Assembly (NCBI RefSeq): GCF_038039215.1
Contig: NZ_JBBPCL010000001.1
Span: 1,550,001-1,614,000 of the forward strand
Direction: 5' to 3'
DNA: 64,000 nt
From: Pseudonocardia sp. T1-2H
Lineage (GTDB): Bacteria > Actinomycetota > Actinomycetes > Mycobacteriales > Pseudonocardiaceae
Shown here: positions 9,967 through 61,311 of the stretch, in pieces
Layout: each line of letters opens with the position of its first letter
Numbering within the stretch: the stretch's first letter is position 1
Program-made: the position numbers and the translations under genes
Notes under the pieces: generated by a model
Databases searched by the model: none
What the model was told of the DNA's origin: nothing
The model's input: only the letters and a program-made list of their open reading frames with translations

Positions 9967-10428
9967 ATGGCCGCACCCGAGGTCGGTTCCCAGGCCCCCG
10001 ACTTCACGCTGAAGGACCAGAACAACCAGGAGGTGACCCTGTCGTCGTTCCGCGGCGACAAGGCCGCCCTCGTGGTGTTCTACCCGTTCGCGTTCTCGGG
10101 GGTCTGCACGGGCGAGCTCTGCTCCGTCCGTGACGACCTGTCGAGCTTCCAGAACGCCGACGTGCAGATCCTTGCCGTGTCGGTCGACCACCCGTTCGCG
10201 CTCAAGGCGTGGTCGGACGCCCAGGGATACGAGTTCCCGCTGCTGGCGGACTTCTGGCCGCACGGCGAGGTCGCCAAGGCCTACGGCGTCTTCAACGACG
10301 GCGCCGGCTTCGCCCTGCGCGGCACGTTCCTCGTGGACAAGGACGGCGTCGTCCAGTTCTCCGAGGTCAACGGGCCGGGCGAGGCGCGTGACCAGGACGG
10401 CTGGAAGAAGGCGCTCGCGGCGCTGTGA
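9967..10428 (+). CDS. ahpE: AhpE-type peroxiredoxin
   Basis: A 153-residue thioredoxin-fold peroxidase that reduces hydroperoxides and peroxynitrite. The peroxidatic Cys47 sits in the FSGVCTGELC motif with Pro40 and Thr48 upstream and downstream as expected; Cys52 follows. Actinobacterial AhpE enzymes act as one-Cys peroxiredoxins reduced by mycothiol or mycoredoxin, which is the likely partner here. The ATG is preceded by GAGGAG (about 9953-9958). The gene ends 34 bp before the tRNA. Confidence 0.94.
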   Translation: MAAPEVGSQAPDFTLKDQNNQEVTLSSFRGDKAALVVFYPFAFSGVCTGELCSVRDDLSSFQNADVQILAVSVDHPFALKAWSDAQGYEFPLLADFWPHGEVAKAYGVFNDGAGFALRGTFLVDKDGVVQFSEVNGPGEARDQDGWKKALAAL

Positions 10429-10462
10429 GTCGTCTCTCGGGGCCCTCGGGCCCCGGGAACCC

Positions 10463-10537
10463 GGGCGCGTAGCTCAGCGGGAGAGCACTCGGTTTACACC
10501 CGAGCGGTCGCAGGTTCGATCCCTGCCGCGCCCACCA
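10463..10537 (+). tRNA. tRNA-Val (anticodon UAC), CCA encoded
   Basis: A complete cloverleaf can be drawn: acceptor GGGCGCG/CGCGCCC, D-arm GCTC...GAGC, anticodon stem CTCGG/CCGAG with loop TTTACAC (anticodon TAC), T-arm GCAGG/CCTGC with loop TTCGATC, discriminator A and encoded CCA. All stems are fully paired. An integrase gene begins 89 bp downstream in the same direction, so the 3' end of this tRNA is the likely attachment site of the adjoining element. No second copy of the 3' end was found by eye. Confidence 0.97.
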
Positions 10538-10626
10538 CTCTGAGCAGCAAGTATGCAGCTGACGCAGCTTGTGCGCTCCCGTCGTGGGATCAAATGTGGT
10601 GCGAACTGCCTGCTAGCGTGATCGGC

Positions 10627-43100: not shown

Positions 43101-45450
43101 TGCTTCTCGTCCTCTGTTAGCGAGGTCGGGTCAGTGGTCGACTTTGTGAGGACATCGACGACGTCCGGTGCCTCCCTCCCCAACGCCTGGCGCACCACCT
43201 GGCGGACCAGGTCTCGGTAGTGGTTGCGGGCCACGCCAGCGGCTGTGCGAGCAGCGTCGTCTCTACTGTCCGTGAAGACGATCGTCTTGCTGTCCTCCGG
43301 TAGGTCCCCCATCGTTCTGATCAGCTGAGAGAGGAACACTTGAGTTGACTGCGCGAGACCTGACGTGTGAGCACGGATCGGGCTTCGGACCTCACCGCGC
43401 CAGTACATCTCGGGATCTCTGTTGTGACCCTTCTGAGCGCAAGCCGGACACATCTCAGGGAGCGCGGGCGGCTTCTCCTTGCTGTCACCGGGAAGCCCGC
43501 GATAGGTCATCACCCAACCTGTTGCGTTGAACGAGCCCAGCTCAACGAGCCCAGTACGTGGGTTCAGCTCGGCTGGGCTGAAGCTGAACTTCACCGTTCC
43601 CGACTTGGCGGGAAGTTGGTGAGACCACTCAAGGTCAGGGCTGATCGGCTTCGCACCGGGCCAGTACCACATGTACTCGCCGTACCGGCGGCGGAACACT
43701 GGTTGCTGCTCCATCGCCGGTACCTCTGCGGTGTCTGGTCCGAGGACCCAGCCGAGACCCTCCTCCTCGGGAAGCCGGTCAACGACAAAGCCGCCGAGAC
43801 TGACATCGCCACAGTCGAAGCAGTAGAGGAGGTCTAGAACCCGGGACCCGCAGTCCGGGCAGGACGACGCCGGGACATCGAGAAGCCTTCCGATGGTCCG
43901 CGCGGGGTCGGCTGGCCCCGTACCGCAGGACGGATTCGAGCATGCCCAGACTCCGCGGACAGTCCGTGCGAAGAGATGCGCTCGCAGGGGGATTGTGGTG
44001 TCTCGGTCAGCCGGGTCATCAGCGATTCGGGTGAGTACCTCGCCCAGCGCCTGCCGGTCGCGCTCACTGCCGTCGGCGTCTGCGAACAGGCGCCGAGCTA
44101 TCTCCGCCAAAGGCGTCGCACGGTGACGACCGTCGTCGGGCGAGTAGCAGGCGCCTGCAACGGCCTGGGACAACGTCGGCCCATCGGCCCGCGGCTCGTG
44201 GCCGGCGTCGCCTCTGAGCACCTGCGACCGAGTCAGCTTAGGCGGAGTGCCGATGGACCGAGGCTGCCCTGCGGTGATGTGGAAGGAGTCGCGCGACGCT
44301 CCGAAAAAGCCCTCGAGGTACTGGCGACTCTCTTCGCCCTCGTCAAGGGAGGCGCTGGTGGCAACAAAGCGAAGCTGGGAGCTGTCGGGCTCCAGGCCCA
44401 ACCGTGCAAGCAGGTTGCGCAAGATCATTGCGACCTCGCTGCCTTGTGTGCCTCGGTAAAGGTGGAGTCGTCAACCACCAGGGTGAGCACGTGCTCTGGC
44501 GCGTGCGCCAACCAGTCGCGGGTTCTTTCAAAGAGCGGGCTGTCGGCATCCCGCATCAGAAGAGCATTAAGCATAGAGTAGTTCGTCACGAGCACGTCGG
44601 GAGGAGTGACTCGCATGTCCCAGCGCACCAGCATCTCGTTTCGGCGCGGATCCGAGAACTGTGTCAAGTTGTCCGGGCTGTAACCGGCTGCCTGCAGGTC
44701 GTCGTACTCACGAGTGATGCCTCGTAGCTGCTCCGCGACCCGCGCAGCATTGTCAGAGCTGCCCTGCGGTTGCGTGACGGTCCCAAGAGAGGCTGAGGTG
44801 TAGCGGCCGAACCAGAGCTGGGACTCTCGACGAAGCGCCGCAATGTTGCGGACCGCGCGGCGGAGTCGGACGACCTGGTCCTCGACAAGTGCATTCGTGG
44901 GATACAGGACGATAGCCCGCATCGATGCCGGACGGCTCTCACTGCGTAGTGGTTTCCATCGGTTGGCGTTCGGCGCGCTCCACCAGTCGTTAACCGCGGG
45001 CTCGTTGGTCCATGACATCGACTCGTCAACGAGCCGCAGGAGCACTGGCAGGAGGAAGCTCTCGGTCTTGCCGGACCCTGTTCCTGACGTGACTACTACG
45101 TTGGGCCGTGTGTTGCTGCTTCCTAAGGAGTAGCGGATCGCCTCGGCCTGGTGTTGGCGCAGGAGGATAGGGGAGGCTTCTTTGGTGAACGCGCCAAAGA
45201 GGGCCCTCCCCACGATCTCTGCAGCTGTATCAGAGACGCCGGCCTCCCGGGTGACGTCGAGTAGCGGCATCCTGGCATCGTAGGGTACGACAGGTTCCAG
45301 CAAAGGATCTGCGAAGAGACGCCCGGGTCGTTCGAGAAGCGCCCGCCGCTCTTCCATCAGGCTCTCATTGCGGAGCCAGAACGCCGTATCGAAGTACCGA
45401 AGGTAAGCATCCCGGATTGAGTCGTTGGTCGACAACGGGTTAGCAGACAT
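40103..45450 (-). pseudogene. DruE-like superfamily II helicase with C-terminal DUF1998-type zinc domain, one frameshift
   Basis: About 1782 residues if repaired. N-terminal part (45450 to about 44470): VVTSGTGSGKTESFLLPVL (Walker A) and LVVDDSTF where LVVDELH is expected; the next frame gives [25 protein letters not shown], so one base is missing at about 44466-44470. The long second part has ATSASL (motif III), [12 protein letters not shown] and [13 protein letters not shown] (motifs V-VI) and ends with a Cys-rich [14 protein letters not shown] ... [11 protein letters not shown], the DUF1998 signature. Size and layout match DruE of Druantia type III. The upstream partner is 13 bp away. Confidence 0.8.
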
Positions 45451-45463
45451 GCAGCACCTCGGC

Positions 45464-48400
45464 TTAGGTAGCGAAAAGATCGAAGATGTGCTCAGCGAAA
45501 GACTTCGACACGTCGTGGTATGCGATTGCGCGCTGGTCCTTCACTTTCTGCGGTAACCGGCCGCTGCTTAACACGGCCGCGCGACCGTACATGCCAGGGA
45601 GGTCGGCGCCAAGCGCAACGACAAGCAGGCGGGATTTTGAGTAATAACCTAGGAGTGGTCGTCCGAGGCGCTGAGCCTCTAGGTGTTTCACCAGTTGTGC
45701 CGTTCCGACTGCTGCTTCCTGTCGCTCGATATCTGCATCGGATCGGTATACATAAAGCGTGCGGAATGCGGACTCGAGACGGTAGGCGCCCGGGGTGGCC
45801 GCTGTTTGGACCGGCTCCCAGTATGCGGCTGTCACGTTGAAGCGCTCAATCTTTCGCGCCCCAGGCATGGGAACGCGGCACAGCTTTGCACCAACACGAC
45901 TTAGCTGCGGCAGAATGTTGAGTAAGGCCGACGCCGCGCGCGGGACGATCTTCACGGGGGCATCAGAAGGCAACAGGTCCCGTAGCCCAGGTAGTAGGTC
46001 AGCGACGGTCGAGGCGGTCAGGCCCTCCACGAACCAGGACCTCGGGCCTTCCCTGTTCTCCTCGTACGAGTACTTCCCACCGACATCATTTACATTCTGC
46101 TCCAGCTGCGCTCGCGCGCTGTCGGACCATGCGCCTACGAGGTAGAAGGACCCGTCAGCCGCTTCCGCGAGAGCCGGCGGAGCTATCGACCAGGACGTCA
46201 CCTCGAGCCGCTCGTTGCGGCTCAGGTCGACGTGCCCGAGGACCTCGAGACTGCGCCGGAAAGAGTCGGCCGCAATGGCCGAGGAGTCAACCTGAGTAAT
46301 CACCCGGTCCAGCGACGTCACGGTGCCACCTCCGAGGTGGACGAGTGCGTCGAGCGCAACGTCGTGATCGACTACCAGTGTATCAGCGCTTGCGATTTGT
46401 GCCAGGCGGTCCGAAATGCTGATCTCGGCGCCAAGGTCACTCGAGCGCGGACGGTTTCTCCGTGGCCACGATGGATATCGCTTCTCAATTCCACACTGAC
46501 TGCAAGAGCCAGACAGCATCGGCGATGGCGGCTTTCCCATGGGGGTCGGCGGGAGCTGGATGCGATGCGCTCCCGTGACGACGCACGACTTAGGGTTAGG
46601 GGCCGCAATGACAATCGGCACCGAACTTTGCCGGGGTGGCCGGTTAGCTGACCACCAAATCTGCCCGATCTTCGTGGCGGAGGGCTTCATGATCTGGTGT
46701 GTCGTCGCTGGAACAGAAGCGCCCCGAACAACGTGCGACGAGCCGTCGAATTGGTCGATAGCAGTCGTAGCGGTGAGTGGCTGGTCCGGATGGTAGCCGA
46801 CAACAACGGCCGTGTCCCAGGTCCAGCGGTCCGGGGTGTCTGACGACCGCAGCCGCAGGATTGAGCGCTGCAGCGCTCGGTTCCCGGTGTCGAGCTTGAG
46901 TTCGTAGTCGCCGTCCTCCAGCTCCATCTCGGCGAGATCGACCAAGAGCACCCCACGCTGGCTTTGCCAGCTATGCGACTCGATCGCGTCGCCCGAGGCC
47001 AGCTGCATGCGGGACAGCGAGAGGGCAAGCTCGTTGTCGAGCTGAGACACCGCACGAATCTCTGGTGGTCGAAGTGCCGACCACTTGCGAAGGTTCCCGG
47101 GAAGCTTCATACCGCCGGCGATGCTTAGCTGTGAGGAGATGACCGGCACGAGCGGGTTAAGGTCCGGATACTTCGACGCAGAGATGGGCGCCGACAGAAT
47201 CTGAACGTCCGTGAATAAAGACCATCCCCGCGGAAGCCCCTGCAACGCGTCCCGGCGTTGAAAGCCTGGACGAGCAATCGCTTTGAGGAGCCCGTCTACC
47301 TGGTCCGGCAGCTGACCCTGGTTCTTGACGAGAACAAGTGAGTCCTCGCCGAGCTGGACCCGTTCGCTCTCGACGAATGCGTTGGTCAGCTCGTCCCGGC
47401 GGAAGGGAACCACACGGTGTGGGTGACGCCGGGCCTGGACTCCTGTGCGTGGGTCTACCAGGTGCAGAACGCCTTCCACCACGGAACCTGGGTCAATGCT
47501 GCCCGCCGTCCGCGGACGGACCGTGCCGCCCCCGAGCGGAAGCATGTCGATACGCGGCGTGCCATCAGCGCTCTCAACGACGAGCTCGTCGGGGCAGACG
47601 CTCCGAGCATCGTTGCCAGGAACGACAGCTGAAGAGCAGGCTTGGGGAAATTTCGTAGCTGTGCCATGAGCCGGATGTCACCGGTTCGTGGCTGTGCCGA
47701 CGTGCCTCCGGCGTCAATGGGATCAGTGGCATCGCGGTTGTCCCAGCTCGCCAGCTCCGTCGCGGCGACCTCCGCAATCCGCTCCTGCGCACCGGTTCGC
47801 TGCCACAGACCCTGCAAGTTCTTGCTCGCAGGACAAGGAACTTGCTGGATCCAAGTGTCAAGGATCCTTGCCATGTCGGCTGGCGGGATGTCGCTTCCCG
47901 GTGGAAGGCCGAACTGACGGAACATCCTCGTGAGATGGCGCCGGTCCGCGGCCCGGATGAGCGCCTGAGACAGCGGAAGGCCGATATAGCGGTGGGTAAG
48001 CGCGAACGCTGTGGGTACACCGTAGCGACCATCGTTCAGTGTCAGCCAGTCGTTGAGTCCACGCCACAGCTGCTCGGCGGCTGCCTGGTAGGCACTTTGC
48101 AGTCGTTCCTTCGGCTTGTCCCCTGTGACTCCCAGAACCGCAGCGAGACGCGGGTAGTAGGCATGGACGGCCACATTACGATCACTCCCCATCGCTTCGG
48201 CCGCCAGTGTGAACGCAGCCAGCAACGCCAACGTGGGGGGCGGCTTGACATGGGAGTCAGACTTGCTCCGGCGTCTGACGTCTCGCCGCCACCGGTCGAG
48301 GTGTTGTAGATGAGCGCGGAACACATCGGCGGAGCCGCCGTGAAGCGCCAGGGTCGCCCGGACAGCCTCCACAAGCTGGCCTTGCGCCTCGTCGACGTCG

Positions 48401-48540
48401 ATCGACAGATGCGAGGAGACCTCGGCCAGAACAGCGTCGTCCATGTCTAGGTAGACGGGGCGGCCAGCCTGATCTTCGGAGAAGACGGTTGCGCATATTG
48501 CAGAGTTCCAGCGGAGGTAGTCGTCCCACGCGTTCTCCAT
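45464..48540 (-). pseudogene. DruH-like large protein, one frameshift
   Basis: About 1025 residues if repaired. The ATG at 48540 has a GGAGG site 5 nt upstream. The first part reads to about 47615 (ending QLSFLATMLG before shifting); the next frame continues PDELVVESADGTPRID and on to 45464. The break is at about 47612-47624. No catalytic motif was recognised; a CSQCGIEKRYP segment near the middle could bind zinc. It immediately precedes the DruE-like helicase on the same strand, the arrangement of Druantia type III (druH-druE). Identification is by size and neighbour. Confidence 0.62.
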
Positions 48541-48671
48541 CTTGGCCTCCAACTGACCCTTGACGGCCTCTCGGTGCCATGCCTGCTCACCACTGAGGGC
48601 ACAACCGCCGCCCGTATGATCGACTCGCGTCGACACTCCGTCGCGGCGCCACGCCGGACCGTACTCGTGGT

Positions 48672-48998: not shown

Positions 48999-49321
48999 GG
49001 AGTATCGGCGTCACTCATGTCGTGTACTTTCGTTGGTGGGATAACAGGACATCAAGGACCATGAGACCACGTTTCCCCGTAAAGCTGCGTCGAATCTCGA
49101 CGGCGCGGCGGGTTGTGTGTTCGCTGTCGGCGGGCCACGCAACGCGTAAAGCATCAATGGCTTCATCCCAGCCAGGCGTGCCGCGCAAAACTTCTAGCCC
49201 CAGTACGGGGACGCCGCTGTGCTGCCTGAGCTTCCCATGGTCTAGTTTCGCTTGCTGTGGTGAGCGTCTTCAAGACGGAGGCATGTAACCACACGGACGT
49301 GTGCAGGGAGAAGAGGTCGCG
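48999..49321. other. Divergent interval between the Druantia-like operon and the HNH nuclease gene
   Basis: This 323-bp stretch is less GC-rich than average. Apart from the short minus-strand candidate at 49015-49188, no gene is supported. It should carry the promoter of the HNH gene. Confidence 0.4.
49015..49188 (-). CDS. Short candidate gene upstream of the Druantia-like pair
   Basis: 57 residues from a TTG at 49188 to a TGA at 49015: LRGTPGWDEAIDALRVAWP ... VLDVLLSHQRKYTT. The sequence looks protein-like, and the same frame stays open upstream to about 49267 without an ATG or GTG, so the start is unclear and the gene may be 5'-truncated. It ends 17 bp before the 68-residue gene. No function suggested. 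Confidence 0.3.
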   Translation of the reverse strand: MRGTPGWDEAIDALRVAWPADSEHTTRRAVEIRRSFTGKRGLMVLDVLLSHQRKYTT

Positions 49322-50251
49322 ATGGTCGAAACCGATGTTGCTAGGGACTGGTTCGTTGCAAATGAAGGGCGAGTAGTCAGTTGGAAAGAGCTCTCGCGAC
49401 ACGAACCTCGGATGGTTAGCGCACCCAAGGGGATCTACAAACCTGCTGGCGATCGGTATGCGCTGACGGTACGAATAATGAAGGAGAGTCGCTACCCCGA
49501 TGGCAAGATCTTCTACGACGAAAGTGGGTGGCGCTGCGCGTACCATCAGGAGGGTAGTGATCCGTCGCGCCGAGATAAGGAGTTCACCAACAGGGCCCTT
49601 ATGGAATGTCTGCGGGACGGCATCTCGGTCGGTGTTCTTAGGGAAGAGTCGTCAACGTCAAGCGGCGTACATTATCGAGTAATAGGACTGGCCAATATTG
49701 CGCGATGGCTTGACGGATTCTTCTTCCTGCAGAGTGTGTCTCGATCACCGGGTGAGCGAGATATCGTCGCGTCAGTCGTTGAGGCTGAGGCTCGCCGCGA
49801 GATGACAGATGACAAGGACGCTCCGGATGATGACTACGACGCACGGCTTCGGGCCGAACGCTCCATAGTCGCGCGTCAGGGTGCGTCACATTTTCGTGCT
49901 GCGCTCCTCGAATGGTACAGGGGACGGTGCGCACTCAGTGGTAGTGATGCCGTGCCCGTTCTCGACGCGGCACATATCGTTCCCTATCGCGGTGTTGACT
50001 CGAATATGATCTCTAACGGAATTTTGATGCGGACCGACCTGCATACGCTATTTGATAAGTTACTACTTTGTATCGACCCAGATTCAGGGACCGTTCGGCT
50101 CTCGGCTAATGTCCCTGAGTCGGCCTATGGCTGGATCGATGGTCAGCGGGCCGACGGCTGGGGCGTTACGCTGGGCGACCGCCAGATCGCCGCTTTGCGG
50201 CGTGCATGGAGCCGATTCCGCGACGAGGAGGTCGCTCGTGGCGTTCTGTAG
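49322..50251 (+). CDS. HNH endonuclease with an N-terminal reader-like domain (type IV-like)
   Basis: 309 residues from the ATG at 49322 (AGAGG 7 nt upstream; GTG at 49301 is an alternative). Residues 1-150 form a beta-rich domain (APKGIYKPAG, YPDGKIFYDESGWRCAYHQEGSDPSRRD) reminiscent of the modified-base reader domains fused to HNH in McrA-like enzymes. The HNH domain (about 195-260) has CALSGSDAVPVLDAAHIVPY, an Asn in NMISNGILMRTDLHTLFD. The low-GC composition suggests transfer. A modification-dependent restriction role is inferred from domain type and the defence neighbourhood. Confidence 0.78.
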   Translation: MVETDVARDWFVANEGRVVSWKELSRHEPRMVSAPKGIYKPAGDRYALTVRIMKESRYPDGKIFYDESGWRCAYHQEGSDPSRRDKEFTNRALMECLRDGISVGVLREESSTSSGVHYRVIGLANIARWLDGFFFLQSVSRSPGERDIVASVVEAEARREMTDDKDAPDDDYDARLRAERSIVARQGASHFRAALLEWYRGRCALSGSDAVPVLDAAHIVPYRGVDSNMISNGILMRTDLHTLFDKLLLCIDPDSGTVRLSANVPESAYGWIDGQRADGWGVTLGDRQIAALRRAWSRFRDEEVARGVL

Positions 50252-50254
50252 ACA

Positions 50255-51201
50255 TCCGTTCGGATGGCGGCCAAACAGCGATGGGCGCCTTACTGATCCT
50301 CGACCCGACGATGAACGAGAACCCGGCGTCTTCCAACGCGTTCAGGTTCTTCGCTGACAGCATCCCGGCGTCGGCGACCACGACCATGTCCTTCACGCCG
50401 TGGCGCTGCTGGAAGCCGCGTAGAACCGGGAGCAGGGTGGACCCGCAGATCCAGGTCGGGCTGCTCGTCGACCCGTCCGGGTTCCCACTCGAGGTGGCCT
50501 GTTTCGAGGGCAACACCGCCGAGACCACCACCTACGACCTGGCCGCGCACTTCGAGCGGCACGGCAACGCCTTCGACGACGGCCAGCACCTTGAATCCTC
50601 GCGGGTCATGGGCACCGGGAAGGCCGCCCGGTCCCGGCGGGTGGTCTACCACTACCTGTTCGCCCGGCATAAGCGTGACGACCGGGCCATCAACGCCATG
50701 GTCGACCGGGCCGAGAAAGTCGCTGCCGGCACGCGGCCGTTGAACAAGGACCGGTTCGTGCGCATTGACGCCGCCGGGAAAGACGTGGACTGGGGCCTGG
50801 TCGAACGCGCTCGCCAGCTCGCCGGGCTCAAGGGCTACGTCACCAACCTGCCCATCTCCACGATGGACGCCGCGGCGGTGGTCGCCGCCTACCACGATCT
50901 CTGGCAGGTCGAGAAGTCCTTCCGTATGGCCAAGTCCGACCTGCGCGCCCGCCCGATCTTCCACCGCGAACGCGACGCCATTGAAGCCCATCTGACCGTC
51001 GTGTTCGCCGCCCTCGCTGTGTCCCGGCATCTACAGGACGCCACCAGCGTCTCCATCAGGAAGCTCGTCCGCGCTCTGCGGCCGCTGCGCACCGTCCGCA
51101 TCGACGTCGGCGGGCACCCCATCACCGCAGCCCCGCAGATCACCACCGAAGCCCGCGCCCTGCTCGACCGACTACCCGCGATCAACGCGCCGGGGCACTA
51201 A
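50255..51201 (+). pseudogene. Scrambled IS1634-type transposase remnant with an inverted internal block
   Basis: The 3' two thirds reads forward: DPQIQVGLLVDPSGFPLEV, then FEGNTAETTTYDLAAHFERHGN and the DDE-type C terminus (YHDLWQVEKSFRMAKSDL, RPIFHRERDAIEAHL). The block that should sit between ETTT and YDLAAHF, containing LPVLRGFQQRHG and MVVVADAGMLSAKNLNALED, is missing there and lies upstream in opposite orientation at about 50283-50437. The N-terminal part of the transposase is absent. Not functional. Confidence 0.85.
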
Positions 51202-51592: not shown

Positions 51593-51952
51593 ATGGCGCG
51601 ACATCCCAGTCGGAAGGACATCGCCGCGGTCCAGAAGTGGGAGCAGGAGGCGCTCTCCGATTATTTCTCGTCGATGTCCGCGGTCGATAGCGACGCGGAG
51701 CTGAAGGCGCTCTGGGAGGCCGTGCGCGCGCTGGTCTTCGCGCGAAGCCCGCGCGAGGTGATGGAGGTGATCGCGGCGAATCCGGGCCTCCTCACGGAGC
51801 GGGGTGATGCCACCCTCAATGTCACGGAGCACTTCATCGTGCACCTACCCATGCCATTCGCCGCGGCGACCCTCAGGGATCGCCGGGAGTGGCTGACCCG
51901 GATGCGTGAGGTCGGCACCGGCGCGAGCGGCCCGGCGCTGCCCGATGCCTGA
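51593..51952 (+). CDS. Small CHAT-operon protein (gene 1)
   Basis: 119 residues from the ATG at 51593. It contains VMEVIAANPGLLTERGD ... LRDRREWLTRMREVG, resembling the linker found just before or within TPR arrays of actinobacterial CHAT proteins. No catalytic motif. Its stop overlaps the start of the Sel1/TPR gene by 8 bp, so the operon probably begins here. Likely an adaptor or sensor; inference. Confidence 0.72.
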   Translation: MARHPSRKDIAAVQKWEQEALSDYFSSMSAVDSDAELKALWEAVRALVFARSPREVMEVIAANPGLLTERGDATLNVTEHFIVHLPMPFAAATLRDRREWLTRMREVGTGASGPALPDA

Positions 51953-53507
51953 GGTGCCGGCACGGGTCACATCGCTGTACGCGTCGCGGCGCTGGCTCGA
52001 CCGGCGGTTGCGTGCGGGTGACGAGCCGTCCGAGCATCCGCCGAGCGGCCTGGAGCGCGGGCGCGCGGTGGGCGCGGTGAACATCGCGGGCCCGCTCATC
52101 CGGCAGGGGCGCACCACGGAGGGCCGCGCGTGGCGGCACGGCGCCGCTCTCGCCGGCATGCCCGAGGCGGCGCTGGAACTCGGCGGCGACCTGATTAACG
52201 GCAACGCTTTCGCCGAGGGCGAGCTCTGGCTCCGCCGCGCCGCTGAGGGCGGCCTCCCGGCGGGGATGCTGCACCTCGGACGCTACCTCCTCTTCTCGGG
52301 CGATCGGGACCAGGCGGACGCCTGGCTGCAGCGCGCCATCGAGGCCGAGCCCGCGACTGCGCACGCGCTCGTCGACGACCTGCAGCTCCGCGGCTTTGAC
52401 TCGGACGTTGCCCGCTGGACGGTGGCCGCCGCGGAGGTTGGTAACGCGCGGATGGTCGCCGACGCCTACGACGCGGCGGTCCGGCGGGATGACCGCGCCG
52501 ACGCCGAGCGCTGGTGGGCCTACGCCCGGGCGCTGGGTGACGCGGACGCGCTCGAGCGCGGCGCGGCGCTGGCCGCCGAGCGCGGGGATGCGGACGACCG
52601 CCGACGCTGGCTGCAGGCGGCCGCGGCGCGGGGCCATGCCGATGCGACGCTGATGCTCGCGGGGGAGCGCGTGGAGGCGGGCGACCGCGCCGCGGCGCGG
52701 TCGCTGCTCGAGCCGCTCGCCGCTGGCGGGCACGCCGGCGCCCTCGACGTGCTGGCGCGGCTGGCGTGGCTCGACGGCGATGCGGCGGCTGAGCAGCGCT
52801 GGCTGGAGCGCCTGGTGTCCACGGGTGAGACAGACGCGCTGTTCGCGTGGGCGACGAAGCTGACGGAGGAGGCTGGCGACCTGGTCGCCGCTGCGCGCGT
52901 CCACGACCTGGCCGCTCGCCACGGGCACCTCCCGGCGGCCGTCGAGGCGGGGCGGCTGAACCTACGCCGCGGGGACGCGGACGCGGCGGCGCGCCTGCTG
53001 GTGGCGCCGGCCGCGGCGGACCTGCCCGACGCGGGGCTTCTGCTGGGGATGGCCGAGCTCGCGGCGGGACGGCCCGACGCCGCCCGCCGCGCGTTCCGGC
53101 GCGCCGCCGAGGGCGGCGACGCCCGCGCGGCGCACAAACTGGGGCTGATCGCCCACGAGGTCGGCGACCGCGAGACCGCGCGGACGTGGTACCTGCGTGC
53201 GGCCAAGGGCGGCGAGACCACGTCGATGTGGAACCTCGCGCTCATGGCCCAGGAACGCGATCAGCAGGACGCCGTGCGCTGGCTGGCGATCGCAGCGAGT
53301 CACGGCCATGCCAAGGCGGCCACCCGGCTGGGCGCCTTCGAGGCCAGCCAGGGTCGCACGGACGAGGCGCTGCGCTGGCTGGCGCAGGCACAGGCCCTGG
53401 GCGACGACGACGCGCCAGCGGCGATCGCCGCCATCGAGCGGCACCTCGCGACAGGTGGTCGCCGGCGCCGGTGGGCGCCGTGGCGCCGGGGCGGCGGCGA
53501 TGGCTGA
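51945..53507 (+). CDS. Sel1/TPR-repeat protein (gene 2)
   Basis: 520 residues made almost entirely of helical pairs of the Sel1/TPR type (AEGELWLRRAAEGGLPAGMLHLGRY, RRAFRRAAEGGDARAAHKLGL, ARTWYLRAAKGGETTSMWNLAL, and so on), ending in a basic RRRRWAPWRRGG tail. Such solenoids bind partner proteins. The ATG overlaps the preceding stop and the stop overlaps the CHAT start by 8 bp, so the three are translated in step. Likely a scaffold for the protease. Confidence 0.88.
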   Translation: MPEVPARVTSLYASRRWLDRRLRAGDEPSEHPPSGLERGRAVGAVNIAGPLIRQGRTTEGRAWRHGAALAGMPEAALELGGDLINGNAFAEGELWLRRAAEGGLPAGMLHLGRYLLFSGDRDQADAWLQRAIEAEPATAHALVDDLQLRGFDSDVARWTVAAAEVGNARMVADAYDAAVRRDDRADAERWWAYARALGDADALERGAALAAERGDADDRRRWLQAAAARGHADATLMLAGERVEAGDRAAARSLLEPLAAGGHAGALDVLARLAWLDGDAAAEQRWLERLVSTGETDALFAWATKLTEEAGDLVAAARVHDLAARHGHLPAAVEAGRLNLRRGDADAAARLLVAPAAADLPDAGLLLGMAELAAGRPDAARRAFRRAAEGGDARAAHKLGLIAHEVGDRETARTWYLRAAKGGETTSMWNLALMAQERDQQDAVRWLAIAASHGHAKAATRLGAFEASQGRTDEALRWLAQAQALGDDDAPAAIAAIERHLATGGRRRRWAPWRRGGGDG

Positions 53508-56500
53508 CGTGCTGCCGCTGCAGGAGCAGGAGGAGCTGCGCTTAGCGATGACACGGCCGCGGATGCCGTCCGCCGCGCGGACGCAGGCCGCCGCCGCATA
53601 TGCCGCGGTCGCTCCGGCGTTTCAGCGCCTCGCCGCCGCGGAGGGCCGCTACGACTACGAGGGCGACCTCGACGGGCTCGATGAGGCGCTGCGGACCTTC
53701 GAGTCGGTGGACGGCACCCCCGCGTGGCGCGCGCTGGCCGCCGACCGCCGGGCGGACTGGGGGAGGCGCGCGTGCCTGATCTACCGCGGGCGCTACGAGG
53801 AGACCGGCGCCGAAGATGACCTCCGCCGCGCAGTGGCGACGGCGGGCACAGCGGCCGAGGCCGCCGCGGCAGCCGCCGCCGCCGCCGACGACGCCGAAGC
53901 CGCAATGAGCGCCGTCGCGGCGCTGGTCACAGCGCGCACGGGCGCGCCCGTGGAGGCGACGCTGCCCGCGGTGCGGCAGGCGATGGGCCGCGAGATCGAG
54001 GAGGCGCGTGCGCAGGTCGCTGAGATCGAGCCCACGGTGCTCGCCGTGCTCGGTGAGCAGCTCACCGGGCGCTTCGACCGTGACCGCCGGCACGGCGACG
54101 CCGACCGTGCCGTCGACGTGCTGCGCCGGGCACGGTCACTGCGCGCCGAGCTGCGCATTGAGCCGGACGCCGCAATCGACGTCCGCCTCGGCGGGGCGCT
54201 TATCCTGCGCTTTAAATATGCTGGCGCCCGTGCGGACATCGACGAGGCGGTCGCGGTGCTGCGCGAGGGCGTCGAACACGCCGGCGACGATCCTGACCGC
54301 GCGCGGGCGCTCGACGGGCTCGGCTGCGCGCTCCTCGCGCGCAGTGAGCACGCCGCCAGCGGCGATGACCTCGCCGAGGCGGTCGAACGGCTCTCCGAGG
54401 CGGTGGCGCTCAAGCCCGCCTCCCCGTGGTTCCGCGCGAACCTCGGGACCGCGCTGGTGGAGCGCTTCGGGCGCCAAGGCGACCGCGCGGACGGCGCACG
54501 CGCAGTCGAGCTCCTCGAGTCCGCGCTCGCCACGATCCCGCCCTCGGCCCCGGACCGCCGCCGTATCGAGCAGAACGTCCTGGCGGCCCGCCACACGTTC
54601 CGCGAGCCGGGCGCAGCCACGCTCAGCACGCGGGCGCTTGTCGACGCCACGCCCGAGGGAGCTCGCGGCCGGCCCGGGCGAATGGGGGCACTCGCGCTCG
54701 ACCTGGTCGTGGAAGCCGAGCGCACGCTCGACCTGACGAGCCTCGATGAAGCGGTACGGACCGCGGCGCAGGCGCTTGACGCGACGGCGCCGGGCGCCGT
54801 GGACCGGCCCAGCATCGTGCACGCGCTCGGGCGCGCGCTCGCGACGCGGTTCGCCGTCCTGGGAGCCGACGCCGACCTCGACGACGCCATCGGCGCGCTC
54901 GCCGAGGCCGCCCACGACTCCGGCCACAGCGCAGCCGAGCGCCCCGATTTTCTCCTCACGCTGGCGGAGGCTCGGTCCATGCGCGCGGCGCGGACGGGCG
55001 CCCCGCAGGACGCGGAGGTCGCGGAGGCGAGCTTCTTCGATGCGTGCACCGCGGGGGAGGAGCAGAACGCGACCGCCGCGCGGCGCGCCGCGGCGGCGTG
55101 GCTTGCGTGGGCAGCCGAGGAGGGTGCCTGGGACGCGGCAGCCGAGGCAGGGCGCCGCGCGATGGTCGCCGTCGATCGCATCCATCGGGTCCAGTTCGGG
55201 CGCGAGAACCGCGAGGCGATGCTCGGCGGGGCTGGCTTCATCAACGCCGACGCGGCGATCGCGTTCGTGCGGTCTGGGCAGCCCGCCGAGGCGCTGCTCG
55301 CGCTCGAGCACGGCCGCGCGCGGCTGCTATCCGCGGAGCTTGAGCGCGACCGCGCGGAGCTCGACGCGCTGGTCGCAGCGGGCCGCGGGGACCTCGCCGA
55401 GGCGTTCCTCGCTGCGGCGCGCAGCGTGAGTGGCGCCGAGCGCGCTGGGGACGCCAGCACCGTGCGGGAGGCCGACGCGGTGCTGCGCGCGGTGGCCGGG
55501 GAGATCCGCAGGGTTCCCGGGCACGACGCCTTTCTGCAGCAGGTCGGCGTGGACGAGCTTCTGCGGATCGGCGGCGAGGCGCCGCTGGTCTATGTCGCCG
55601 CCGGCCTCCTCGGCGCGACCGTGGTCGCGGCCGTCCCCGGCGGCGAGGTGCGGGCGCGCCTCCTCGATGGCGTTGATGCCTATGTGGTGGGCGGACTGGT
55701 CGACGACTACCTGGCCGCGCTGAAGGCGCGCTGCACCGCGCCGCACGCCTGGCGCGGGGGACTCGACGCCGTGGGGGAGGCGCTCGGTGCGATGCTCTGG
55801 CCGGCGCTCCTGTCCGTCCTGGGCGGCGTGGACCGCGCGGTGCTCGTCCCGGCCGGCCTGTTTGGCCTGCTGCCCGTGCAGATCGCATGGTGGCGCGACC
55901 CGCTCGGCCGCCGCTACGCGATCGACGCCTTCGAGTTGAGCTTCGCGCCGAACGCCAGGACGATCGCGGCGTGCCGACGACTGGCCGCGACCGCCGACGC
56001 GGGGTCTGTGCTCACCGTCGCGGCGCCGGAGCGCACCGACGTCGCGCCGCTGCCGCTAGCGCGCGCGGAATCCGACGGCGTGCGGTCGGCGTTCGCCGTG
56101 GGCGAGCAGGTGGCCGGGCCGCAGGCGATGAAGGCGGAGGTCCTCGGCGCGCTGCACCGCCATGGCGTCTACCACTTCGCCTGCCACGGTCGCTCGACGC
56201 CCGACCGCCCGCTCGACAGCGCGCTGCTGCTGGCCGGCGACGACGCGCTGCGCGTCCGGGACCTCCTCGAGACCCCACTGCCCGGAGCCCGGCTGGCGGT
56301 CCTCTCGGCGTGCGAGACGGCGGTGATCGGGCGGCGGCTCGTCGATGAGGTGATCGGGTTGCCGACCGGCTTCCTCCAGGCGGGCGTCGCCGGCGTGATC
56401 GGGACGTCGTGGGAGGTCGGCGACGAGAGCGCCGCGCTGCTGGTCCGGCGCTTCTTCGATACGTGGGACAGCGAGCGCCCGGCCGCGGCGCTCCGCGCGG

Positions 56501-56670
56501 CGCAGCGGTGGTTGCGCGAGAGCACGAACGCCGACAAGCGCGCCGCCTACCCGGACATCGCGGCGGCGCCGCCGGAAGGGCTCGATGCCGAGGACCTCGA
56601 GGACTGGGGAGCGAGCCGCGACCATGCCGGCATCGAGCGCTGGGGCGCCTTCGTGCACACGGGAGCCTGA
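53500..56670 (+). CDS. CHAT-domain (caspase-fold) protease with TPR-type N-terminal region (gene 3)
   Basis: 1056 residues. The first 600 or so are TPR-like helical repeats. The C-terminal CHAT domain (about 760-1030) has the caspase-type dyad His896 (YHFACHGRS) and Cys938 (LSACETA), plus the expected GTSWEVGDESA strand. CHAT proteases serve as effectors in bacterial conflict systems, where activation cleaves a partner or host protein. It is the central gene of a five-gene operon with a solenoid partner before it and a small Cys-rich protein and a membrane protein after it. Very GC-rich, with no breaks in frame. Confidence 0.93.
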   Translation: MADVLPLQEQEELRLAMTRPRMPSAARTQAAAAYAAVAPAFQRLAAAEGRYDYEGDLDGLDEALRTFESVDGTPAWRALAADRRADWGRRACLIYRGRYEETGAEDDLRRAVATAGTAAEAAAAAAAAADDAEAAMSAVAALVTARTGAPVEATLPAVRQAMGREIEEARAQVAEIEPTVLAVLGEQLTGRFDRDRRHGDADRAVDVLRRARSLRAELRIEPDAAIDVRLGGALILRFKYAGARADIDEAVAVLREGVEHAGDDPDRARALDGLGCALLARSEHAASGDDLAEAVERLSEAVALKPASPWFRANLGTALVERFGRQGDRADGARAVELLESALATIPPSAPDRRRIEQNVLAARHTFREPGAATLSTRALVDATPEGARGRPGRMGALALDLVVEAERTLDLTSLDEAVRTAAQALDATAPGAVDRPSIVHALGRALATRFAVLGADADLDDAIGALAEAAHDSGHSAAERPDFLLTLAEARSMRAARTGAPQDAEVAEASFFDACTAGEEQNATAARRAAAAWLAWAAEEGAWDAAAEAGRRAMVAVDRIHRVQFGRENREAMLGGAGFINADAAIAFVRSGQPAEALLALEHGRARLLSAELERDRAELDALVAAGRGDLAEAFLAAARSVSGAERAGDASTVREADAVLRAVAGEIRRVPGHDAFLQQVGVDELLRIGGEAPLVYVAAGLLGATVVAAVPGGEVRARLLDGVDAYVVGGLVDDYLAALKARCTAPHAWRGGLDAVGEALGAMLWPALLSVLGGVDRAVLVPAGLFGLLPVQIAWWRDPLGRRYAIDAFELSFAPNARTIAACRRLAATADAGSVLTVAAPERTDVAPLPLARAESDGVRSAFAVGEQVAGPQAMKAEVLGALHRHGVYHFACHGRSTPDRPLDSALLLAGDDALRVRDLLETPLPGARLAVLSACETAVIGRRLVDEVIGLPTGFLQAGVAGVIGTSWEVGDESAALLVRRFFDTWDSERPAAALRAAQRWLRESTNADKRAAYPDIAAAPPEGLDAEDLEDWGASRDHAGIERWGAFVHTGA

Positions 56671-56674
56671 CGCG

Positions 56675-57070
56675 ATGGACGACGACGACATCCTCGAGGC
56701 GGCCCGCACGATCCGGTCGGTCCTCGCCGAGATGCCGGGGATCGATGATCCCGCGGCGATCGACGCCGCGCTCGCCGCCGCGGTGTCGGAACACGACGTC
56801 CAGGCCGCGCGCGCGGAGCTGTGGCGCCGGCCCGTGATGCGCCGGTGGGCGAAGGAATTCGTGCGCCTCGGCGTGCCGCCGGAGCTCGTCCTGGAGCAGA
56901 CCCGGAGCGGCGCCGCCCCGCCGCCCGGCCACGGCGGGATCGTCGCGGCGCCTCGCTTTCGCTGCCCGCAAGGCGACTACGTCTGGTACCGGCGCACCGC
57001 TGTCCACGCGGTGCCACTTTGCCCAAGTCACCGCGTCCGCGTGGTGCCCGATATGGGCGCGGTCTCATGA
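56675..57070 (+). CDS. Small Cys-containing protein (gene 4)
   Basis: 131 residues. An N-terminal helical region (DDDDILEAARTIRSVLAEMPG ... AVSEHDVQAARAELW) is followed by a compact C-terminal motif RFRCPQGDYVWYRRTAVHAVPLCPSHRVRVV with two Cys and one His, which may bind zinc. Starts 4 bp after the CHAT stop and overlaps the membrane-protein start as ATGA. Could be an adaptor, substrate or sensor of the protease; not known. Confidence 0.75.
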   Translation: MDDDDILEAARTIRSVLAEMPGIDDPAAIDAALAAAVSEHDVQAARAELWRRPVMRRWAKEFVRLGVPPELVLEQTRSGAAPPPGHGGIVAAPRFRCPQGDYVWYRRTAVHAVPLCPSHRVRVVPDMGAVS

Positions 57071-58098
57071 TCTCGAGCTTCTGGAGCGGGCTGGGCGGCA
57101 AGCTTGCGGAACGCGGGGCCGCAGCGCTGTTCACCCCGGCATTCGCGTTCTGGGCGCTCGGTGTTGGCGCTTGGCTCCTGAGCCGGCCCGACGCCGCCGC
57201 GCAGCGCCGTCTCATGGACGCGTTCGAGGGCCTCTCGGGGATCGCGCAGGCCACGCTGATCGTCCTGGTGTTGCTGGTCGTCGCTGCCTCCTCGGTTGTC
57301 GCCGAGCGCCTCGCGCTGGCGGTCCTGCGCGTGCTGGAGGGCTACTGGCCGCGGCCGTTGCGAGCGCTCGCGCGCGCCCTCGTCAGGTGGCGCGCTGCGC
57401 GCTTCGTGGTGCTAGAGAAGCGCTGGGTCGAGCTCTACGCTCGCCACGAGGAAGGGCGCTCCGCTCAAGGGGAGGAGCAGGAGCTCGTCGATCTCGAGCG
57501 GCGGCTCGCGGCGCTGCCGGCGCGCGCCGACCGACTGATGCCCACGCGGCTCGGGAACGTCCTGCGCGCCGCCGAGAGCGGCGTCGAGGACAAGTACGGC
57601 ATCGACCCGGTCCGCTGCTGGCCCGCGTTGTGGCTGGTGCTCCCGGATGCGACGCGTACGGAGGTCACGGCCGCGCGGGCGAGCCTCGACACGGCCGCCA
57701 CGTGGGTGCTGTGGTCGGTGCTGGTGGTGGTGTGGGCCGTGTTCACGCCGTGGGCCGTGCCCGTTGCCGTGGTGGCGGCGGTCGCGGCGTACGCGAACCT
57801 GCTCGGCACCGCGGCCCGCTACGGCGAGCTTGTCGACGCCGCCTTCGCGCTGCATCGGGGGCTGCTCTACGACGCACTCGGGCGCCCGCGACCGTCGCAG
57901 CCGTCCGACGAAAGGGCCGCCGGCCGGGTGCTCACCGCGGCGCTGTGGCGAGGGCCCGAGGTGGCCGCACAGCTCCCGAGTACCGCTCCGGACGCGGCCG
58001 AGGCGCCAGCGATCCGGCGGGCTCCGCGGCCACCGTCGGACGCAACTGCAGGAACCGTCCGCGTTCGTCGAGGGGGTCGCGCTGGGCCGCGGGCATAA
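57067..58098 (+). CDS. Membrane protein of the CHAT operon (gene 5)
   Basis: 343 residues with four probable transmembrane helices: about 16-38 (AALFTPAFAFWALGVGAWLL), 58-82 (IAQATLIVLVLLVVAASSVVA), 213-235 and 237-255. The cytosolic part between has a charged helical stretch (VDLERRLAALPARADRL). It is the last gene, overlapping gene 4. A membrane partner is what a death effector or signal receptor would need. A downstream frame ending at 58153 (EPSAFVEGVALGRGHKEAL...) also looks protein-like, so the C terminus may be frameshifted. Confidence 0.8.
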   Translation: MISSFWSGLGGKLAERGAAALFTPAFAFWALGVGAWLLSRPDAAAQRRLMDAFEGLSGIAQATLIVLVLLVVAASSVVAERLALAVLRVLEGYWPRPLRALARALVRWRAARFVVLEKRWVELYARHEEGRSAQGEEQELVDLERRLAALPARADRLMPTRLGNVLRAAESGVEDKYGIDPVRCWPALWLVLPDATRTEVTAARASLDTAATWVLWSVLVVVWAVFTPWAVPVAVVAAVAAYANLLGTAARYGELVDAAFALHRGLLYDALGRPRPSQPSDERAAGRVLTAALWRGPEVAAQLPSTAPDAAEAPAIRRAPRPPSDATAGTVRVRRGGRAGPRA

Positions 58099-58775
58099 AG
58101 AGGCTCTGCTCTTCGTCATGAAGCGTGGTGAGCCGGTGATGAGCGGCGAATGACTCTCACCTCCGCGCGGCGGAGTCCAGCACGGCGGTGCTCAGCTTGG
58201 GGGCGTTGTTGCAGCAGCAGGGCAGGCGACTCGTGAACGTGGGCGGACGCCCCTCGCTGACCGGCGAGCGGCGTCCACCAGAGTGGTGTTCGACCGGCCT
58301 GGTGACGGGCGGACGTTCAGCACCGGTGGGTTGGGCCGGGGGGCGACCGAGCACGATCCGGTGCGCGATGCCCTCCCGGTGCGCTCGACTCGACGTCCGC
58401 GGCGAGCTGAACGGATAGCACGGGGGAGCCGGGGAGGGGAAAGATCCACCAAGACCCGACCAGCAGCGGATGCCGCTGGCCACCCGGGACCGGAACGTCC
58501 CGCTGGTCAGAGCAACGTTCCGCCGGTTCCCAGGTGAGCGCACTTGCAGTGCCGGTGATGTTGGTGGAGATCGAGGCGATCGTCGGCATTCCGGCCAAGC
58601 TGTCGCGATCGGCGTTGATCGACAGGCTGAAGCGCTTGGGCTCCATGGCCGAGCTGACGCAGCGTGTCGCGGCTCCGCACGCCAGCGCGGTGGGTGATAG
58701 TCGCGGCTGTGTAACGTCAGCTCGCCGCGGACAGGTGAGCCAGCTTGGCTGCGGTGTCTCCCATGGGTGGCGTGG
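58099..58775. other. Gene-poor, degraded interval after the CHAT operon
   Basis: Open frames here are short, Arg/Pro/Ser-rich and broken, with no ribosome-binding sites. Several small dyads occur (for example around 58458-58540). No intact gene is supported over 677 bp. It looks like decayed insertion DNA. Confidence 0.5.
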
Positions 58776-59528
58776 ATGTCTCATGGGATAACAGCGGGGA
58801 TCGACTTGTCGACGAAGGCCAGCACGACAGCGGTGTGTGTCATCGAATGGCAGGCAGGGCGGGCTGTGGTCTCGTTGCTGCGCGACACCTCGGACGTCAG
58901 GCTTGTGGAGATCTGTCAATCGGCTGACAAAATCGGCATCGATTGCCCGTTCGGCTGGCCGGAGCCGTTCGTCGAGGCGATCGCCGCCCACGCTTCGCAT
59001 GAGCCCTGGCCCGGCCGCGGCCTGCCGCCCGATGAGTACCGCAGGAAGTTGTCGCTGCGCACTACCGATCTGCACGTCGCCCAGACCCTGAAGAAGACCC
59101 CGCTGTCGGTGTCCGCAGACCGAATCGGGAGGACGGCGATGCGCTGAGCTCTTCTGCTCGACAGGCTGGCTGATGTCGACCGCAGCGGAGTCCCGGCAAG
59201 GTGGCAGAGGTCGTACCCCGCAGCGTCGCTCGCGTCCTGGCGAGTCGACAACACCAGCTACAAGTCGCCAGGCAACCTCACGACGCTTGGCAAGCTGCTG
59301 AGCGACCTCACGCCACGGCTCCCGTGGCCAAAGTTCGAAGACGACGCGCATGAGAGCTGTCTGCAAAGCGACGACGCTTTCGATGCGATGATCGCCGCGC
59401 TGACGGCGAAGGCTGCCGAACGCGGCCTGACGCACCTGCCTGAGGACGAGGAACAGCGCCGACTCGCGAACTCGGAGGGCTGGATCCATGTGCCCCGCGC
59501 CGGGTCGCTCGATGAACCGCTGAGCTGA
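58776..59528 (+). pseudogene. DUF429-family protein with one in-frame TGA
   Basis: One continuous frame from the ATG at 58776 to 59528 encodes a DUF429 (predicted RNase H-like nuclease) protein of about 250 residues: TAGIDLSTKAST, IGIDCPFGWPEPF near the start and DDAFDAMIAALTAKAAERG ... EGWIHVP at the end. A single TGA at 59145-59147 interrupts it after RIGRTAMR, where a Cys or Trp codon is expected. No frameshift is needed. It is either a nonsense mutation or a base-calling error. Confidence 0.75.
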
Positions 59529-59654
59529 GCTCCGGGTCTGGGCGTGGGGCCATTCATGGGGCGAAACGGTGTCGCGTGGTGCGGTTGGAGGGGCTTCAGT
59601 GACCCACGACGGGGGCATAGTTGCTGGTAGAGACCAGATATCATGAGATCCGGC

Positions 59655-59701
59655 CGCCTTTTAATCCGCGGGTTCAGGGTTCGGTCTCCTGGGGCCCACC
59701 A
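59655..59701 (+). other. tRNA-Lys-like 3' remnant
   Basis: CTTTTAATCC (UUU-type anticodon loop), CGGGTTCAGGG TTCG T-arm and a GGGGCCCACCA end resemble the 3' half of tRNA-Lys, but the acceptor stem and D-arm are missing or do not pair and the T-loop has changed bases. It is the sort of fragment left at an integration site. Just downstream is a cut-off F420 oxidoreductase. Confidence 0.4.
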
Positions 59702-59730
59702 TGTACTCCTGCACGTTCGGTAAGGAGGTG

Positions 59731-59893
59731 CTACTCGACCACGTGCCGAGCCGGCGGCCAGACGTGGTCCATCGCGCTGACGCGCGCGAACCCGGCCTCC
59801 TCGGCGGCGGTGACGATGCGGGTCAGGTCGTCGGCCGGCCCCGCCGGGCCGGACGGGTAGGTGAAATCCGCGATGTGCCAGACCGATCTTCAC
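59731..59893 (-). pseudogene. N-terminal fragment of an LLM-class F420-dependent oxidoreductase
   Basis: With one frame correction near the start the minus strand reads MKIGL and then ADFTYPSGPAGPADDLTRIV ... AEEAGFARVSAMDHVW, the opening of LLM-class F420 oxidoreductases. It ends at a TAG at 59731 after only about 55 residues. The rest is gone, cut next to the tRNA-like remnant. Evidence of a deletion or insertion event. Confidence 0.72.
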
Positions 59894-59994
59894 GATGTCC
59901 TCGGTGCCTTCTCGTCAATCAACGGTTTCGACGCTAGCCGCTATGAGCTGCCCAGATGTCATCTGACGGTGGCCCTGCTGGTACCCGGTTCGGC

Positions 59995-60702
59995 TCAGGT
60001 GGGCACGGTGGCGGGGTGCCGGGCGGAGAGGGCGTGCGCGGTGGTCGCGGCGGCGGGCTGAAACTCGGCCAGCAGCGCGGCGACCTCGGTGCGCGCGGCG
60101 GCGATGTCGGCCTCGGCGCCGTCGTGCAGCCCCTCGACCACGACGAGCGCCCGCGTGGTGGTCGGCCGCGTCGCGCTCTGCGCGCTCTGCCGCCAGCACC
60201 AGCGCCGGGCGCAGGCGACGCCGGCGCGGTCGACGAACACCACCTCCCCGGGCTCCGGCGCGCTGGCCTCGGCCGCACCGAGGTCGGTGAACCGCTCGGT
60301 GCCGGTGGCGAACCGGACGGTGATGCCGCCGTCGATCCCGGCGAGGTCGACCACGGCGACCGGCAGCGCGTACCGGATCGACACGAGGTTGCCGAGGTCG
60401 ACGAGGGTGTTGATGGATGGGATGTCGCCCTGCTTGGCCAGCCGCCGCAGGAGCGCCTCCGCGGCGCTGCGGTACTGGGTGGGCTTCGCCCCGAACGCTG
60501 CGAACGCGCGGCGCCAGGCCGCGATGGATGGCAACTCGGCGACCGGCGTGGTCGCGAGCCGCTGCGCGACGTCCCGCTGGGCGGCGCGGTAGCGCTCCAG
60601 CAGCGCGGGCGGCGTCGATCCATTGGTCAGCCGGGACGCGGCAACGATGCCGGCGTGGATCGCCGGGTACCGCTCCAGGACGGCGGGGTCGTAGCGGAAC
60701 AC
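59995..60702 (-). CDS. B3/B4-domain protein
   Basis: 235 residues with the B3/B4 fold found in the beta subunit of phenylalanyl-tRNA synthetase and in stand-alone proteins: SINTLVDLGNLVSIRYALPVAVVDL, FATGTERFTDLG, GEVVFVDRAGVACARRWCWRQS. The stand-alone forms may bind or edit mischarged tRNA. The C terminus is Ala-rich. No neighbours suggest a pathway. Confidence 0.85.
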   Translation of the reverse strand: MFRYDPAVLERYPAIHAGIVAASRLTNGSTPPALLERYRAAQRDVAQRLATTPVAELPSIAAWRRAFAAFGAKPTQYRSAAEALLRRLAKQGDIPSINTLVDLGNLVSIRYALPVAVVDLAGIDGGITVRFATGTERFTDLGAAEASAPEPGEVVFVDRAGVACARRWCWRQSAQSATRPTTTRALVVVEGLHDGAEADIAAARTEVAALLAEFQPAAATTAHALSARHPATVPT

Positions 60703-60731
60703 GCGCGAAAGACTAGGGCCAGACCAGTCCC

Positions 60732-60854
60732 GTGACCGAGTCCAACGAGCCTGTGATCAACGGGACCGATCCGGGCCTGCCGATCGGGCTCGGCGACGTG
60801 CGGGCACGCGGCTCCCGGGCGCTGCCCGATGGGCTCGCCGACGCGCTTTGCCAC
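60732..60854 (+). pseudogene. Truncated gene start next to IS630 debris
   Basis: A GTG at 60732 opens a protein-like N terminus (TESNEPVINGTDPGLPIGLG) diverging from the B3/B4 gene. After about 40 residues the sequence turns into IS630-type debris, so the gene was probably cut by the insertion. Product unknown. Confidence 0.35.
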
Positions 60855-60987
60855 GCGGTCAGCGGCCGTCAGTCGGGCCGGGCGCGGACCCGTTGGCGGC
60901 GGAGACCCGGGCGCAGGCCGCGAGGAGCAGCCGCAGCGGCGGGGACGGCACGTCGGACGACGGGGCTGCCAGCGCTCGTGATCGTCG

Positions 60988-61311
60988 GTGGCTCGCTACC
61001 GCAGTGGGCCGCTGCGCGCGTTCCTGCGCGCGCAGCGCGGCTGGTTGACCGTGCACTACCTGCCTGCGTACGCCTCGGAGCTGAACCCGACCGAGAACCT
61101 GTGGGTGTCGTTGAAGACCCGTGATCTGGCGATCCGGGCCGCCGCCACCGTGGAGGAGTTGCTGGTGCTGGCCCACCGGGGTGTCCACCGCCTCCGCCGG
61201 CGACCGGACCTGCTGGGCAACTTCCTCGTCCACACCCGGACTGCAGCCCTTCAACCAAATAGGAAAAGCCCGTTAATCCGTCGGTTGGAGTTCAGGTCCT
61301 GCAGCACATAG
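60988..61311 (+). pseudogene. IS630-type transposase C-terminal fragment
   Basis: VHYLPAYASELNPTENLWVSLK ... TVEELLVLAHRGVHRL ... LLGNFLVHT is the last third of a DDE transposase of the IS630 family, holding the Glu of the ELNPTENLW motif. The N-terminal two thirds, with the first Asp residues, are missing. Confidence 0.8.

Follow-up and report, generated by a model that had tools for sequence, protein, structure and literature searches.

A caspase-clan protease kept with two unnamed partners: a widespread three-part bacterial module, probably of cell death or defence

Caspase-clan proteases are common in bacteria and, to our knowledge, most of them have no known substrate. The closest described systems, for the genes considered here, are Borvo, Craspase, the bacterial gasdermins, and the CATRA and EACC1-caspase systems. 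Our subject is a five-gene operon, g1 to g5, found in a stretch of 64,000 nucleotides from Pseudonocardia sp. T1-2H (assembly GCF_038039215.1, contig NZ_JBBPCL010000001.1, positions 1,550,001 to 1,614,000, forward strand), with this whole stretch referred to here as the window. The third gene, g3, encodes a CHAT protease. What relatives keep, as shown below, is a conserved unit consisting of a caspase-clan protease together with g4 and g5, i.e., a genuine and widespread three-part module, which probably serves in cell death or defence and has no name as yet. Kept beside the protease over four phyla as well as over a change of protease family, g4 and g5 are obvious candidates for substrate and dock, and the three genes make both the targets of bacterial CHAT proteases and caspases, and killing via the membrane, directly testable.

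Comparison with described systems

Borvo is a one-gene system, and its likeness to the module is the CHAT protease: The Borvo protein, BovA, has the only PADLOC model that is touched by g3 at E<=1. That match (E 1e-4, 19 bits) pairs g3 residues 893-991 with profile positions 510-601 of 720, that is, with the catalytic segment only and not at full length. The difference is that neither g4 nor g5 has a PADLOC match. Borvo is an anti-phage protein tabulated as CHAT in PMC10952713. The Csx29 protease of Craspase (type III-E CRISPR) is a TPR-CHAT protein, g3 likewise being a CHAT protease with a TPR match (under cut-off), and among solved proteins it is the closest to g3 (E 1.4e-4). Cutting of the Craspase substrate, Csx30, releases a sigma factor, according to PMC10028731. 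The NCBIfam model of Csx29 matches g3 at E 4.8e-9 but at only 35.6 bits, versus a cut-off of 300. Cas7-11 does not appear among the PADLOC matches listed for 15 window proteins (in one case the best 25 of 59 families), with no search aimed at Cas7-11 or at CRISPR arrays.

Bacterial gasdermins share with the module the idea of a protease standing beside a membrane-acting partner, with the type of protease varying. Gasdermins are soluble, beta-rich pore formers, whereas g5 is read as having hydrophobic helices, and no gasdermin family is found among the Pfam matches listed for g5 or for its relatives (for the latter, the best 25 of 40 families).

The CATRA ternary conflict systems are said to have been set out by Burroughs and Aravind in 2020. 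They are described as caspase-dependent ternary systems in PMC8195603. At E<=1 no CATRA Pfam family matches any of g1 to g5, and a search for CATASP (PF20271) came up empty in all 10 genomes, though without a positive control that matched. A sub-threshold CATASP match does lie inside the CHAT protein of one relative, locus L106 (17.2 versus 29 bits, E 0.0047), and given that match there may be a distant link between the module and CATRA. The EACC1-caspase systems of Kaur et al. (2020) are membrane-associated caspase systems, with EACC1 bearing a single membrane helix (PMC7159879). Compared by description, these resemble the module in combining a caspase with a membrane partner but differ in that g5 has about four helices and is accompanied by a ribbon adaptor.

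The gene set had not been recognized as any named system in an earlier, sequence-only reading of this DNA, and that judgment has held: Neither Pfam nor PADLOC has a family that matches g4 or g5 at E<=1, and no NCBIfam family does so over cut-off. The available portions of PMC7159879, PMC8195603, PMC10952713, PMC10907252 and PMC10028731 make no mention of a g4-g5 pair, and no description of it was found in literature that was mainly open-access and partially accessible, with an earlier account elsewhere being possible. Judged from sequence comparison, it is known protease families that underlie the module, with uncharacterized and unnamed partners in g4 and g5.

A protease, g4 and g5 kept together

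Searching with g5 returned at least 226 proteins at E<=0.01 among 8000 scored candidates. Genome contigs were then scanned with a 29-row g5 alignment, giving 142 places with a relative, and the locus counts that follow are for the best 80 of those 142 (individual loci carry an L number). In 78 of the 80 a g4 is present, directly upstream of g5 in 76, and in 70 of the 77 loci measured the g4 stop is at most 30 base pairs (bp) away from where the conserved part of g5 starts (median 6 bp). Since some of these loci went into building the wider g4 profile used here, a narrower first profile gives the cleaner count, with g4 in 70 of the 82 g5-bearing sources (including the window and its duplicate, L001). 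A caspase-clan protease is found in 72 of the 80, with CHAT in 63, C14 caspase in 12, and both in 3, such that 9 of the 12 C14 loci lack CHAT. The nearest protease stands no more than 2 kilobases (kb) from g5 in 68 of those 72, being further away in L038, L075, L079 and L100. Neither type of protease is seen in 8 of the 80, and in three of these (L085, L103, L109) the record extends less than 2 kb upstream of g5. Three plasmid records with g5, none used for profile building, all carry g4, g5 and a protease, which is C14 on a Nostoc plasmid and CHAT on plasmids of Rhodococcus opacus and Streptomyces goshikiensis.

That relatives keep g3, g4 and g5 together means that the arrangement is not due to chance. 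The idea that five unrelated genes have come to lie together beside mobile elements might draw on the DDE transposase matches which flank the operon, upstream at 50206-51201 and downstream at 60988-61311. It is nevertheless refuted, and has next to no probability left, since L032 keeps all five genes in order and the three core genes are found together in four phyla.

The kept set is smaller than had been claimed. The sequence-only reading saw a self-contained five-gene protease system, of which the protease, the membrane partner and a strong linkage stand, but the linkage is of three genes. The same five-gene order, when sought in other genomes, was found in L032 alone of the 80 loci (identities from g1 to g5 of 30, 40, 40, about 37 and 48 percent). 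There also is found the only g2 homologue at E 1e-10 among the 80 loci. This co-occurrence of g1 and g2 in 1 of 80 loci is a lower bound, with many locus records ending within or just before g3. Domains like g1 nevertheless do occur elsewhere: free-standing in L032 and fused within the CHAT proteins of L083, L076, L055, L108, L110, L034 and L075. Eight further g1 homologues are of similar length, one of them on a 101043-base contig, and g4 and g5 homologues likewise are on a 101043-base contig. A lipoxygenase identity for g1 (E 0.0052, under cut-off) was dropped. As for g2, of the claimed Sel1/TPR solenoid the TPR type is upheld (TPR_8 exceeds its cut-off, at E 9e-9), and the Sel1 match is not significant (E 0.94). 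On these sequence comparisons, g1 and g2 appear to be accessory to the conserved unit of g3, g4 and g5.

Loci with the complete set of three are found in Actinomycetota, Cyanobacteriota, Chloroflexota and Pseudomonadota. The g5 tree holds 79 loci plus the window (L091, its g5 split over several frames, was left out), and there the window groups with the Actinomycetota loci L032 and L060 (Shimodaira-Hasegawa-like approximate likelihood ratio test, SH-aLRT, 99). The protease is exchangeable, with CHAT replaced by C14 caspase in some cyanobacteria, and for the C14 state (loci without CHAT) a single change, inside cyanobacteria, suffices on this tree. Two loci may be remarked upon separately. L060 has at its positions 10001-10966 a g5 that is close to the window copy, with no g1 to g4 within about 10 kb to each side. 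L048 is the sole acidobacterial locus, with g4 and g5 and no protease found in the stretch covered; a Hsp70-like gene and small genes precede that pair (153-6760).

The protease itself is secure in its family, g3 matching the CHAT model PF12770 with 154.8 bits (curated cut-off 24; E 4.5e-45) over residues 757-1055. The caspase-type dyad that had been read in it, His896 and Cys938, is correct at both residues and is kept wherever relatives cover the position: Of the 74 rows in the CHAT alignment (the window's row being counted twice), 70 have the His and 71 the Cys, with gaps in the remainder, and the C14 rows keep the dyad in 13 of 13. Eleven CHAT partners were scanned with Pfam, and TPR-type matches exceed the cut-off in 6 (L034, L046, L068, L077, L083, L110), those of three (L046, L068, L083) being TPR-S. 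The CHAT protein of L110 (5511-9506) in addition has an N-terminal CpXC match (E 5.5e-11), which is another cysteine-rich partner type.

The possible zinc motif previously noticed in g4 can be assigned to a zinc-ribbon-like domain, with a pattern in some members of C-x2-C ... C-x2-H. The window copy retains Cys97, Cys116 and His119 and is missing the second ribbon cysteine, which is replaced also in many cyanobacteria. The N-terminal domain of g4 (about 1-66) is read, from its sequence, as helical, and by eye is present three times in tandem in L077. Ribbons of the g4 type also form the C-terminus of other proteins, namely, of C14 caspases in L036 (Peptidase_C14, E 2.5e-21), L041 and L058 (the latter two fusions by profile), and of MinD/ParA-like NTPases in L075 and L100. 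The three ribbon-fused caspases also hold a stretch resembling EAD10, by eye. Those fusions suggest that g4 is an adaptor, with the simplest reading being that it docks proteases or switches onto g5. Two sets of matches to g4 in the PDB were set aside, topoisomerase V (E 1.9e-4) as chance, since it matches profile residues 22-66 only and no stretch passes alone, and Gasdermin-B chains (E 0.9 and 6.2) as noise.

The about four membrane helices that had been claimed for g5 are recovered as four hydrophobic stretches (about 18-40, 59-82, 208-229 and 236-256) in hydropathy averaged over 112 relatives, from which g5 is read as an integral membrane protein with about four helices. Two hydrophobic regions thus lie to either side of a polar middle, with short loops. 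The central domain, residues 83-207, is highly conserved and basic, and its net charge of about +5.5 fits a cytosolic location. Among the best 25 of 40 Pfam families for those 112 relatives, none is present in more than 3 members and none is better than E 0.0022.

Cell death, a membrane platform or regulation

Our preferred reading of the module, to which we give tentative and slightly less than even confidence, is that of a regulated cell-death or conflict system in which, following a trigger, the protease would cleave g4 or g5 at the membrane, to which g4 would bring it. Sensing of that trigger would be by the N-terminal part of g3, aided here by the g2 solenoid and by g1, and would unlock the CHAT active site. 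The g4 ribbon would bind the cytosolic domain of g5, with the helical domain of g4 holding the protease there. Cleavage of g4 or of g5 would then result in g5 being opened or freed in the membrane, with loss of membrane potential and, consequently, growth stop or death before the invader spreads. The reading is drawn from the linkage, the plasmid-borne sets, the conservation of the dyad, the single change from CHAT to C14, and the ribbon fusions, along with TPR in CHAT partners, the charge of g5, the patchy distribution, and the Druantia II-like and HNH genes nearby. A more specific proposal, that g5 represents a new alpha-helical membrane executioner family, one opened by ribbon-docked CHAT or C14 proteases, independent of gasdermins and spanning several phyla, we consider unlikely, if not strongly so.

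From a different perspective, g4 and g5 might be viewed instead as a membrane platform or sensor. That is, g5 would anchor the protease at the inner membrane and sense envelope damage, and the protease once released would cut other proteins of host or phage. Ribbons fused to proteases and NTPases are as expected of an anchor, a strongly conserved central part of g5 is as expected of a docking surface, g4 and g5 are the constant pair while the protease changes, and at L040, L048, L091 and L101 that pair is found without a protease in the stretch covered. The same picture would, however, result from a membrane effector that stays constant while its proteases change, and no sensor domain is visible outside the membrane in g5, its loops being short. 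We lean against such a platform while regarding it as a possibility.

Several results weigh against the cell-death reading. By sequence, g5 has no PDB relative up to E 10. Looking in the proteases for the N-terminal domain of g4 gave one marginal match (E 0.1, L090) and nothing more, such that no like-with-like docking is seen. Of the 11 scanned CHAT partners, 5 show CHAT alone over cut-off, and the TPR_11 match in the N-terminal region of g3 is itself under the Pfam cut-off (22.4 versus 26.8 bits). In five loci whose records extend 6.7 kb or more to each side (L040, L048, L060, L091, L101) a g5 is present and no protease was found, L060 being without g4 as well.

The triad also is less evident close to home. 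Of 60 genomes sampled from the window's genus, 10 carry a g5, as do at least 6 of 296 genomes of a phylum sample (window's genome counted in both), the latter being a lower bound, with 7 candidates per genome scored in the rows shown. Outside of the window's genome these provide 17 g5 places, of which 12 were taken (those left out being G218, twice, G149, G152 and G034). While CHAT adjoins g5 in 9 of those 12, just 4 show even a weak match to g4 (E 0.013 to 7e-5), one of them on the opposite strand. The g4 profile matched 1 of the 60 genus genomes, the window's own, with at most 72 candidates scored per genome. The g4 of more distant copies is thus either too diverged or missing, and this scarcity, as it appears from profile matches, counts against a strict triad in the genus.

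Nor does the company kept by the module clearly point to defence. With PADLOC at 1e-15, two families matched one neighbour each, so that no more than 2 of 60 neighbours matched versus 1 of 60 control open reading frames (ORFs), which is no clear excess, in a small sample of mechanically called ORFs from actinobacterial loci only. The neighbours come from 261 non-core ORFs of 32 actinobacterial loci, of which 130 were drawn at random and the nearest 60 kept; at least 2 of these 60 hold the g1 domain. For the controls, 130 were drawn at random from 263 ORFs (20 stretches, five genomes) and 60 of them used. No copy was found in viral contigs or phage records.

Those last two results would suit a stress-response or developmental regulator of filamentous and colonial bacteria, acting for instance in controlled lysis or envelope remodelling and not against phages. 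Actinomycetota, Cyanobacteriota and Chloroflexota supply 74 of the 78 phylum-labelled tree rows (32, 32 and 10, respectively), many of these being filamentous. A gene set that is patchy within one genus (10 of 60 genomes) and plasmid-borne is more like a conflict system, however, and Druantia-like genes adjoin it in the window. In addition, nSTAND1 is found on two scanned C14 partners (L031, L038) and EAD10 genes adjoin in L036 and L058, both being parts described in conflict systems by Kaur et al. (PMC8195603, PMC7159879). Such a regulator we judge rather improbable, with the cell-death or conflict system remaining our preferred reading.

The operon and its surroundings in the window

The five genes are ORFs sharing the plus strand and together span 51593-58098 (Table 1). 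Successive genes overlap by 8 bp (g1/g2, 51945-51952; g2/g3, 53500-53507), are separated by a 4-bp gap (g3/g4, 56671-56674), or overlap by 4 bp (g4/g5, ATGA, 57067-57070), and the same-direction layout of overlaps and gap as first described is exact at every junction.

Table 1. Features of the operon and of the Druantia-like genes in the window (window positions)
Feature	Position	Strand	Description
DruM (Druantia type II) match	38381-39622	+	
DruE match, two frames	40103-44428, 44425-45450	-	
DruF match, two frames	45464-47545, 47455-48636	-	
g1	51593..51952	+	119 amino acids (aa), small protein; domain about 37-112 also within CHAT proteins elsewhere; predicted accessory
g2	51945..53507	+	520 aa, TPR-type solenoid; predicted accessory; homologue of 40% identity at same position in locus L032
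g3	53500..56670	+	1056 aa, CHAT protease with long N-terminal region
g3 CHAT domain	55768..56664	+	residues 757-1055 (Pfam)
g3 catalytic His896 codon	56185..56187	+	
g3 catalytic Cys938 codon	56311..56313	+	
g4	56675..57070	+	131 aa, candidate adaptor; N-terminal domain about 1-66, C-terminal zinc-ribbon-like domain about 90-131
g5	57067..58098	+	343 aa, predicted integral membrane protein, unnamed family

Since the DruF pieces overlap in different frames, the Druantia system may be broken or misread. Between it and the operon, just upstream of the latter, is an HNH endonuclease gene followed by an overlapping DDE transposase frame (49301-51201). Downstream, at 58767-61311, a short frame matches DUF429 over 85 of its 214 positions, and the remnant of a DDE_3 transposase is also present.

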